Source: Bifidobacterium sp. ESL0800 (lineage in GTDB: Bacteria > Actinomycetota > Actinomycetes > Actinomycetales > Bifidobacteriaceae). From it: 64,000 nt of DNA. The stretch lies in the NCBI RefSeq assembly GCF_029395355.1, contig NZ_CP113913.1:744001-808000 (forward strand), read 5' to 3'. Below are positions 23,373-63,802 of the stretch, piece by piece. A program made the position numbers and the translations under genes. The notes under the pieces were generated by a model, which saw nothing but the letters and a program-made list of their open reading frames with translations, searched no databases and was not told where the DNA came from. Within the stretch, counting starts at the first letter, position 1, and every line of letters starts with the position of its first letter.

Positions 23373-23500
23373 AATTAGGAATTATCGCGGCTCAACTGGA
23401 CACATGCCGGCAAATTTCCGAAGGATGGTCGCCGACGATGGTGAACCGGGATGAATCCGGCAGTCGGGCCAGCGATTTCACGTATCATGCTGAAGAAGGT

Positions 23501-23640
23501 GCAGAGATAATCACAGAAAACGACCCGATAATGTGATTACCGTCGTATTACGACCATAAATGCGGAGATAATCACAGAAAACGGCCTGATTTCGTGATTA
23601 TCTCCGCAAGTTGCCCCACGATACAGAGATAATCACAGAA
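23501..23640. repeat. Palindromic repeat array A (three units)
   Basis: Units start at 23501, 23562 and 23623, a period of exactly 61 bases: 47-bp palindrome plus 14-bp spacer. The middle unit is the best, with arms GCGGAGATAATCAC (23562-23575) and GTGATTATCTCCGC (23594-23607) perfectly complementary around an 18-base centre. The first unit has a decayed right arm, and the third keeps only its left arm. It lies between leuS and a solute-binding protein gene. Related arrays are at 33894, 35335 and 63591. Confidence 0.9.
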
Positions 23641-33084: not shown

Positions 33085-33154
33085 GTATGCCTGCCTTGCC
33101 TGGTATGCGCCAAAGGGCTAAAGCAGTCAGGGCTGAGTGGACGAAGGAGTGGGA

Positions 33155-33853
33155 ATGTGCCGCAGATTTTCGCTTGACCTTGATTGGGCCTCCGTTGCTT
33201 CGGATTTCGGTGTCGACGATGAAGACGTCGACACTTATGCACTGCCGGCTCGAACGTTTCGCGTCGAACCGAAGCAGACCATCGGGGTCCTCGCGGCAGG
33301 CGAGGATGGTCGACGGCATCTTTCGGGCGGCTATTGGTCGCTGGTACCTTCTTACAGCGACAAGCGGGAGCTCGCCTATCCGACCTATAACGCACGTATG
33401 GAGACAGCCGCGCAAAAGCCGACATTCAAAGACGCGATGCGAAGCCGCCGTGCCATCATCCCAGCTTCCGGGTATTTCGAATTCAAAGGCAGGCGTCCGT
33501 TTTATTTTCATGCTCAAGGCGACGCCATGCTCGCCATGGCCGGCCTGTTTTCGTGGTGGCGCGACAACGCGGATTCCCCATGGACGCTCACCGCTACGAT
33601 CCTGACCTGTGATGCCGTCGGAGAGGCGGCGAAAATCCACAACCGCATGCCGTTGCTCGTTTCGCGTGATATGACCGGACAATGGCTTGATCGCCACGTC
33701 GATGGATCTGGAATCATTGACGATATTCATACGGCGAGCCTATCTATGTCCGAAAACCTTGATTGTTATGAGGTCGCCGAACCGGCACCGGAAGAAGACG
33801 GACCTCGGTGCATCCGCCCGAAGGCAAAGCGCGTGTGCCTGAGTCTTTTCTGA
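33155..33853 (+). CDS. SRAP domain protein (YedK/HMCES-like abasic-site shield)
   Basis: A 232-residue SOS-response-associated peptidase family protein, which crosslinks to abasic sites in single-stranded DNA to protect them. The key residues are present: Cys2 (the nucleophile exposed after removal of Met1), Asn79 in NARMET, Glu109 in SGYFEF and His162 in IHNRMP. The need for Cys at position 2 fixes the start at 33155, where GAAGGAG lies five bases upstream; an ATG 18 bases earlier would mask it. Residues 60-66 (YWSLVPS) vary from the usual WGLVP. It borders the palindrome-flanked accessory island. Confidence 0.95.
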   Translation: MCRRFSLDLDWASVASDFGVDDEDVDTYALPARTFRVEPKQTIGVLAAGEDGRRHLSGGYWSLVPSYSDKRELAYPTYNARMETAAQKPTFKDAMRSRRAIIPASGYFEFKGRRPFYFHAQGDAMLAMAGLFSWWRDNADSPWTLTATILTCDAVGEAAKIHNRMPLLVSRDMTGQWLDRHVDGSGIIDDIHTASLSMSENLDCYEVAEPAPEEDGPRCIRPKAKRVCLSLF

Positions 33854-33893: not shown

Positions 33894-34105
33894 TTACAGA
33901 ATTAATCACAGTTTTGGCCTCATTTTTGTGATTAATTCTGTAAAATCGCTCATGATGCAGAGAACATCACATTTTTAGTGCATTTTCTGTGATTAGCGTC
34001 GTACACCGAAGATGCTAATCACACTTTTACCCCATTATCATGATTATCTCTGTACGTCGAAGACGCTAATCACACTTTCGATTCGAAGTTTATTCCACGA
34101 TTTTC
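33894..34105. repeat. Palindromic repeat array B (three units and a decayed fourth)
   Basis: Unit 1 (33894-33943) has perfect 17-bp arms TTACAGAATTAATCACA / TGTGATTAATTCTGTAA. Unit 2 (33957-34003) and unit 3 (about 34009-34054) keep the TAATCAC...GTGATTA core with more mismatches; a fourth at about 34060 is decayed. The spacing of the TCAC landmark is 61, 52 and 51 bases, so spacers are 14 and then about 5 bases. It lies between the SRAP gene and the 3' end of the AbiEi/nuclease-like gene. Confidence 0.85.
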
Positions 34106-34181: not shown

Positions 34182-35159
34182 TTATCTGCTCCAAAACATC
34201 GTTCTGTCAGCGATGCGGGGAACACCAGCCTCAATCAGCTTTTTCGTCACCGTATCACGTTGCAATATATCTTTGTAGTCGAAACGCACTATTTGCGAAA
34301 CGCCGGAATTCAGCAAATCCTGCTCGCGTTGCTTCTCGGCATGAACAACCTGACGAATGCTCTGTCCGCCCGTCATAGTGGCGTCGGTGTATTTGTTCAT
34401 ACCGTCATATTCAACAACGACAGCTTTCCCGTTTGCGAGCCGGTACAATCCATCAACCCTATATCTTCGACCATCCTGCATCCGGAATTCCTGTTGCAGT
34501 TCAGGGGCCGGGAAACCTTCTTCGATGATGATTGCGCGGCACAGCGACTCTCCCCCATTTTCGCTTCTTGAGTCTGCATAGCGCAGCAGCACACCAATTC
34601 TGGCTTCAACAGCTGGCACAGCCTTCGAGGTCTGCATCAACGCTGACTTCGTTGTCAGCCGTTTTCTCAATGCTGAATCGATTATCGGCAGCACCTCGTG
34701 GAATTCGAATCTTGCCGCACAATCAAGCAAAGCCTGAGTAACCGAGGTCATGGACCGGTCTTTGTCAAAGAGCGTCTCGTTCGGTGTGACGTGAACGTAT
34801 CGTGTTTTGCTTGTTTTGGCAACACCAATTGCTTTTGTAGACGCCAGAAATATCGTTTGTTGCTCGTTTAGCCAGAAAGGATACTCGATTCCGTAGAGCG
34901 CAATCACGCTCAGACCTGCAAAAATCAATTCCGGACGCCAGATATGCAGTCCTCGTATTATCCATACATACTGCTGTTGCACGCTAAGATTCCGCCAAAT
35001 GTCTTGCAATGCGTACAAACCACGCCTTGCCCTGATCACCTGTCCCGATCGGGTAAGCCTGTAAAGAATTTCCTGGTCAGCGTGGCTTGCAACGTACAGA
35101 CATCGTCCATGGCTCGCTGCCTCATGCAGTTCGTCTTCGATACGTTTGTTGATCTTCAT
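34182..35159 (-). CDS. AbiEi-like wHTH protein fused to a DUF559-like PD-(D/E)XK domain
   Basis: A 325-residue two-part protein. Residues about 1-150 resemble the AbiEi antitoxin: a winged helix (ILYRLTRSGQVIRARRGLYA) followed by a helical part (WIIRGLHIWRPELIFAGLSVIALYG). Residues about 200-325 resemble DUF559/Vsr-like nucleases: Glu204 (GGESLCR), Asp236 (YRVDG), Glu250 and Asp252 (VVVEYDG), then REQDLLNSGVSQIVRF. No AbiEii toxin gene is adjacent, so a classical type IV toxin-antitoxin pair is unlikely. The gene stands alone, is more AT-rich than its neighbours, and is bracketed by palindrome arrays B and C. Its upstream region carries the motif also found before comEA. Nuclease activity is predicted, not shown. 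Confidence 0.8.
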   Translation of the reverse strand: MKINKRIEDELHEAASHGRCLYVASHADQEILYRLTRSGQVIRARRGLYALQDIWRNLSVQQQYVWIIRGLHIWRPELIFAGLSVIALYGIEYPFWLNEQQTIFLASTKAIGVAKTSKTRYVHVTPNETLFDKDRSMTSVTQALLDCAARFEFHEVLPIIDSALRKRLTTKSALMQTSKAVPAVEARIGVLLRYADSRSENGGESLCRAIIIEEGFPAPELQQEFRMQDGRRYRVDGLYRLANGKAVVVEYDGMNKYTDATMTGGQSIRQVVHAEKQREQDLLNSGVSQIVRFDYKDILQRDTVTKKLIEAGVPRIADRTMFWSR

Positions 35160-35288: not shown

Positions 35289-35334
35289 CGTCGATTACGA
35301 ATTCCGAGATAATCTCCGCGCTTTTTGATGAGAT

Positions 35335-35464
35335 ACAGAGATAATCACAGAAAAAGGCCCAATTATGTGATTATCTCTGCAGACCAAAACAAATGCATTG
35401 ACAATCACAGAAACAGAACGGATTTCGTGATTATCTCCGCAAGCCTACTGAGATAATCACAGGA
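35335..35464. repeat. Palindromic repeat array C (two full units, one half unit)
   Basis: Unit 1 (35335-35381) has arms AGAGATAATCACA / TGTGATTATCTCT. Unit 2 (35396-35441) has a worn left arm (GACAATCACAG) and an intact right arm GTGATTATCTCCGC. Unit 3 (from 35447) keeps only its left arm. Spacers are 14 and 5 bases. Fragments of a further unit (CGAGATAATCTCCGCG, 35305-35320) precede it. Confidence 0.88.
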
Positions 35465-63590: not shown

Positions 63591-63768
63591 CACCCAATTT
63601 TCGTGATTACCTCTGCATTGAGCTGCTTCATGCCGAGATAATCACACTTTCCCACCGATTTTCGTGATTAACTCCGCAGCCGACAGCCTCGCACAGAGAT
63701 AATCACACTTTTCAGCGCTTTTCTGTGATTTACTCTGCACTCACCAGCCTCATACAGAGATAATCACA
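63591..63768. repeat. Palindromic repeat array D (two full units, two half units)
   Basis: Two full units at 63632-63678 and 63693-63739, a right half before them (to 63617) and a left half after (from 63754). Period is exactly 61 bases (47-bp unit plus 14-bp spacer: TTGAGCTGCTTCAT, GCCGACAGCCTCGC, CTCACCAGCCTCAT). The core is GAGATAATCACACTTT...CGTGATTA. It lies between the argR stop and the argG start. Confidence 0.9.
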
Positions 63769-63802
63769 ATCTTATGCAGTCCAGTCAACTCACGAAACTG
63801 AA

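Follow-up and report, generated by a model that had tools for sequence, protein, structure and literature searches.

Phased intergenic repeat arrays of Bifidobacterium as probable binding sites of an AbiEi-like/PD-(D/E)XK-type fusion protein

What holds a palindromic repeat in near-constant register at four separate intergenic positions was the question raised by a 64,000-nucleotide stretch of Bifidobacterium sp. ESL0800 (bases 744001-808000 of its genome, G000; hereafter the window). The first-pass annotation had placed arrays of a 47-bp palindromic unit at 23501, 33894, 35335 and 63591, and had suggested that a defined process generated or maintained them. Array DNA was present at all four positions (arrays A to D, Table 1). 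Matches to GAGATAATCAC with at most one mismatch numbered 17 in the window (0.68 expected), and exact matches numbered 57 in the 2.25-Mb single-contig genome, with none for the reversed-pattern control. Searching with a sequence model derived from 52 units gave a genome total of approximately 24 arrays and 60 units, showing that the four arrays were not the only copies. The unit was resolved as TRCR-GAGATAATCAC-18 bp-GTGATTATCTC-YGYA, in which two 15-bp arms flank an 18-bp loop, and was thus palindromic as proposed, with a length of 48 bp instead of 47 bp. Units followed one another mostly at a step of 61 bp, in some cases at 60 bp or 52-53 bp, leaving an outer spacer of 13 or 4 bp. The strict 61-bp step claimed for arrays A and D held in both, with the other steps found genome-wide; the two discrete spacer classes also stood, at slightly smaller values than the 14 and about 5 bp first given, and in neither the genome nor the genus searches did spacer length vary freely. 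Array B was degenerate, array C contained one 60-bp step, and a single half-site was frequent at the start or end of an array.

Table 1. Window coordinates of the arrays and of the likely cognate gene, with the half-site types found in Bifidobacterium genomes
Feature	Position	Strand	Composition or half-site	Step (bp)	Context
Array A	23500..23640		units 23500-23547, 23561-23608; terminal half-site 23622-23640	61	
Array B	33895..34081		units 33895-33942, 33956-34003; degenerate half-sites with short spacer		downstream of putative nuclease gene
Array C	35302..35464		half-site; units 35334-35381, 35394-35441; half-site past short spacer	60	upstream of putative nuclease gene
Array D	63599..63771		half-site; units 63631-63678, 63692-63739; half-site	61	adjoins argininosuccinate synthase, away from putative nuclease gene
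Likely cognate gene, 325 aa	34182-35159	-			between arrays B and C
AbiEi-antitoxin-like DNA-binding part	residues 1-196				likely cognate gene
PD-(D/E)XK-nuclease-like part	residues 199-314				likely cognate gene
Type I half-site			GAGATAATCAC	61	G000 and relatives
Type II half-site			GCGACSAAAAGCAC	61	G083, G085, G088-G093
G037 half-site			TCCGCCGGAATATCAC	62-63	
G102 half-site			CTAGTA-N5-GTCACGCAAA	62	

All arrays examined were intergenic, as had been stated for the window, and most lay 3' of genes. None of 22 arrays fell in a gap between divergent genes, where about 24% were expected (P approximately 0.002, using rough gene calls). The longest type I array (L043, near 1493k in G000) comprised six units, and units and spacers recurred in it as near-copies, which suggests local tandem duplication. 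An apparent array-free gap near the replication origin disappeared once the sequence model had placed arrays at 1.82 and 2.19 Mb, and a plasmid origin was dropped when a plasmid collection gave no match.

Alignment of 53 units pointed to the kind of signal involved. CAC/GTG was fixed, positions 18, 19, 30 and 31 were occupied only by A or T (with few exceptions), and further positions were restricted to purine or to pyrimidine; the foot of the palindrome had the consensus TRCR/YGYA, and not GTAG (or CGTC). The two arms showed no co-variation (648 matches, compared to 643.8 +/- 6.0 in shuffled data). Since A and T were interchangeable at fixed positions without any co-variation between arms, the arrays look, from their sequence, like a double-stranded protein site and not a hairpin, and a hairpin or RNA function was rejected, the only Rfam matches in the window being tRNAs. 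Orthologous arrays from three related species had accumulated 0.034 substitutions per site in TCAC/GTGA and 0.084 in the A/T tracts, relative to 0.26-0.32 in the loop, 0.19 in the spacers and 0.16 in the flanks. Purifying selection thus acts on the half-sites and leaves loop and spacer to drift, and few changes in the half-sites with many in the loop again indicate a double-stranded protein site under such selection. The suggestion of a repeat family kept by a defined process was supported by this constraint. The A/T tracts also displayed a polarity within the unit (AA-AA 20, TT-TT 20, AA-TT 6, TT-AA 0), which was constant along most arrays (window A-D and L031-L048); inspection by eye revealed no link between this polarity and gene direction.

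Searches with the core pattern, for which control matches were zero, uncovered arrays with differing arms in additional Bifidobacterium species (Table 1), confirming the family outside the genome of origin; the remaining 15 genera of the Bifidobacteriaceae yielded none (species counts represent one genome per species). Array loci were largely held in common with G000: 17 of 18 in G084, 8 of 8 in G093 (a strong array-bearing relative, which we take to be a honey-bee gut isolate) and 8 of 8, of type I, in G083. Because nearly all loci are shared the arrays must be old, and with loci this stable between species, recent spreading of type I was not seen. A comparison of adjacent genes brought out nothing beyond shared housekeeping loci. 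Three gaps (3' of asd, at 1632k and at 933k) were occupied by type I in G000 and by type II in other species. The type I array 3' of asd (L040 about 2100-2260, near 1363.4k in G000) adjoins relics of the GCGATGAAAATCAG type, the half-site type that flanks a G000 paralogue of the likely cognate gene at 101221. Two further species, G033 (L115-L117) and G029 (L118-L120), matched the core pattern through dense palindromes (CCCGCACGTAAG..CTTACGTGCGGG) and were excluded as array carriers, these palindromes being freely spaced (57-169 bp in G033); they look like an ordinary REP family of the genus, and a RAYT gene was present in G033, with none in G029 at the threshold used. A second palindrome, GGTCACGCGATGGA..TCCATCGCGTGACC, was found beside the arrays of G037 (L056, L066).

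A likely cognate gene, absent from the first-pass annotation, lies within the window itself, between arrays B and C. The AlphaFold2 model of its product had a mean pLDDT of 91.4, and in this model residues 2-196 take the AbiEi fold, a wHTH joined to a C-terminal antitoxin domain, the best structural match being the AbiEi antitoxin of S. agalactiae (6y8q; Z 8.1 over 174 residues), with 1zel (Rv2827c) in the same fold list (Z 5.8). For residues 199-314 the model gives a PD-(D/E)XK core fold that carries the catalytic acidic residues and lysine, from which nuclease activity is inferred; the match was to the endonuclease-like 3hrl (Z 7.9, 88 residues, 2.8 A), and TnsA (Z about 5), Bax1 and restriction enzymes appeared lower in the list. 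Taken alone, structural Z-scores near 8 are modest evidence. Assignment to AbiEi rests also on a PADLOC AbiEi match (E about 2e-4), on Pfam AbiEi_4 (24.2 bits, just below the cut-off of 25, with detection in 11 of 57 family members at E 0.01) and on the operator geometry described below, and the nuclease assignment also on E204, D236, E250, D252 and K256, which were invariant in 57 sequences. Pfam searches of neighbouring genes in the window identified SRAP, PNPOx, alpha-amylase and histidine phosphatase, and no AbiEii nucleotidyltransferase toxin. The SRAP (SOS-response-associated peptidase) gene, at 33137-33853, adjoins array B. At the same locus G083 has a single array, in line with array C, and is missing the AbiEi-nuclease gene; SRAP and this array are separated there by a different ORF, so that a clean solo form was not shown.

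The association between gene and repeats extended well beyond the window. Homologues were found in 94 of 112 species, and flanks were sampled for 60 of several hundred matches, from approximately 30 species (best matches plus chosen species, hence non-random). At least four copies of a private 12-mer half-site, in both orientations, occurred within 600 bp of 56 of the 60 genes, and at least five copies at 48, compared to 16 of 300 random windows that included REP loci, or 5 of 300 control windows for bee-clade genomes and G023 loci. Half-sites stood on both sides of the gene in 53 of the 60 homologues; the one-side and both-side counts allowed one mismatch to the 12-mer, and are no proof of 61-bp arrays at every gene. 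The densest array seen, L269 (G087:2053307), had 23 flank copies of TTGCATTTGTGA at an AbiEi-nuclease homologue. Each gene or close ortholog set had its own half-site, and several paralogues with private half-sites were present per genome. In seven species (G000, G084, G093, G091, G092, G037 and G102) the gene-flank half-site was identical in type to the scattered arrays, which had been identified independently of the gene, and the flanks of the second G000 copy (at 101221) carried CGATGAAAATCA, the type of the asd relics.

Half-site specificity followed the protein. From a background of 0.29, half-site similarity climbed with protein identity, reaching 0.42 for pairs at 50-60%, 0.66 for pairs at 60-70% and 0.91 where identity exceeded 90%, and its correlation with protein similarity was supported by Mantel tests (0/2000 for all pairs, 30/2000 for pairs below 65% identity); below about 45% identity no correlation was detectable. 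G088 held 12 type II units and no homologue at E 1e-10. In G083 the core of the type I arrays was conserved although no type I gene was detected in that genome, so arrays can outlast the gene or outgrow it. A search of 395 genomes of the class, representing 138 genera, detected homologues at E 1e-30 in 17 of these genera, and no clear arrays were seen in homologue flanks from other actinobacterial genera.

Successive same-strand half-sites, measured at 54 of these genes, were separated by 21, 30, 51-52, 60-64, 72-74, 81-83 or 102-105 bp, with few values between. The best grid for these distances was 10.35 bp (R 0.82), and after removal of distances of 49-65 bp R was still 0.68 (95 distances), relative to at most 0.32 in 300 uniform simulations. 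Distances on a 10.35-bp grid place all half-sites on the same side of the helix. For Rv2827c, binding to four 23-bp inverted repeats has been described, with gaps of 4 and 13 bp and a 63-bp step (PMC7319586). If half-sites here are likewise counted as 23 bp long, the intervening gaps measure 2 and 13 bp, giving 61 bp, or 2 and 4 bp, giving 52 bp (48 + 4), and the tandem inverted repeats of approximately 23 bp at the gene match the published AbiEi operator spacing (PMC7319586). Gene neighbourhood and published geometry are two independent lines that lead to the same protein family.

Taken as a whole, the arrays are probably helically phased, double-stranded binding sites of the AbiEi-like/PD-(D/E)XK-type fusion protein encoded at 34182-35159, binding itself being inferred, and the defined process postulated at the outset is likely to be binding of this AbiEi-like nuclease on one helix face. 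A single subunit would occupy each half-site (TRCRGAGATAATCAC and then R-N-WWW, about 20-23 bp), and with half-sites alternating in orientation on one face, subunits would touch along the array. Such cooperative binding on one DNA face we consider likely, in the absence of any binding data. Binding to the flanking arrays may regulate the gene itself, a plausible inference by analogy with other AbiEi proteins. That the gene, together with its arrays, is a largely self-maintaining unit whose arrays were seeded elsewhere, as REPs are by RAYT, can be proposed only tentatively, at somewhat short of an even chance, no movement having been shown. The route of spreading is a guess, and the least certain step: the nuclease might cut, and recombinational repair might then copy the array, with no cutting shown.

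The alternative that survives best, though we think it unlikely, attributes the arrays to the host: an AbiEi-like protein, or another of the same specificity, would bend DNA, insulate or control transcription at approximately 24 fixed loci, as a regulon or as chromosome-organising sites, and nothing would spread. The conservation of array loci across four species, the constrained half-sites and the three type I loci of G000 that carry type II in other species are in keeping with this, and since the G083 cores are conserved with no type I gene detected in that genome, a host function stays possible. Host sites would, on the other hand, hardly account for the lack of arrays in divergent promoter gaps (0 of 22) or for several paralogues with private half-sites per genome, and a pure regulator has no need of invariant nuclease residues. 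Less probable again is a role in defence, with the nuclease held inactive on the chromosomal arrays and freed against phage or plasmid DNA, the system being a descendant of AbiE abortive infection; the AbiEi-like part, the invariant nuclease residues and the several variable paralogues per genome would suit such a role, whereas Pfam revealed no AbiEii toxin in the neighbouring window genes tested.

Spread of ordinary REP/BIME elements by a RAYT transposase would produce repeats that are, like these, intergenic, palindromic, clustered, alternating in orientation and mostly 3' of genes, and a RAYT gene is itself flanked by two inverted repeat copies (PMC2817692). The resemblance to REP/REPIN and BIME with RAYT extends to a gene flanked by its own repeats, to scattered intergenic copies and to several gene-repeat pairs per genus. 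This explanation is nevertheless hardly tenable. The Y1 transposase (PF01797) was present in 7 other species and absent from G000, G083, G084 and G093, which refutes RAYT as the spreading enzyme in these four; in place of a Y1/HuH tyrosine transposase, the enzyme here combines AbiEi with a PD-(D/E)XK-like nuclease, and the repeats form a phased array of double-stranded sites with neither stem co-variation nor a GTAG foot. True REP-like palindromes of the genus (G033, with RAYT) were spaced freely at 57 to 169 bp, in agreement with the first-pass view that ordinary REPs seldom reach the regularity of the present arrays. CRISPR- or TIGR-like guide arrays, with loops and spacers as guides, would explain constant-length variable stretches between conserved repeats and are otherwise considered very unlikely on sequence grounds, given that orthologous loops and spacers change by point substitution, at a rate at least that of the flanks, and not by replacement, that the inner stretch retains A/T tracts and that the associated gene encodes an AbiEi-nuclease.

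Returning to the AbiEi-nuclease as the likely binding protein, its predicted fold in residues 2-196 is shared with AbiEi antitoxins of type IV toxin-antitoxin systems (S. agalactiae AbiEi, M. tuberculosis Rv2827c), from which it differs by the fused nuclease and by the lack of an AbiEii toxin among the window neighbours tested. Like AbiEi operators, its probable sites are inverted repeats of approximately 23 bp, separated by gaps that measure 2-4 bp and 13 bp (PMC7319586); unlike those operators, they flank the gene at both ends and recur at about 24 further loci. A PD-(D/E)XK nuclease together with arrays of repeated sites also recalls homing endonucleases and Tn7, with its TnsA and TnsB-site arrays. 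The ends of Tn7 carry arrays of repeated sites for the TnsB protein. In contrast to these elements, no transposase was recognised beside the gene, and neither target duplication nor an empty site was shown. The literature search was limited, and suggests that the gene-plus-repeat system is undescribed; a paper outside it may cover part.

At its broadest, the finding could represent a genus-wide element in which an antitoxin-like/nuclease fusion makes, maintains and scatters its own phased arrays, with many pairs of private specificity per genome that change with the protein, a possibility we take seriously without quite expecting it to hold. If true, bacterial intergenic repeats usually classed as REP would have a protein and a site code, and an unrelated protein, in which an AbiEi antitoxin is fused to a nuclease, would have given rise to the REP-like gene-plus-repeat layout. 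The dozens of natural protein/DNA-site pairs could then allow a specificity code to be derived, and the role of solitary AbiEi-nuclease genes would become testable.
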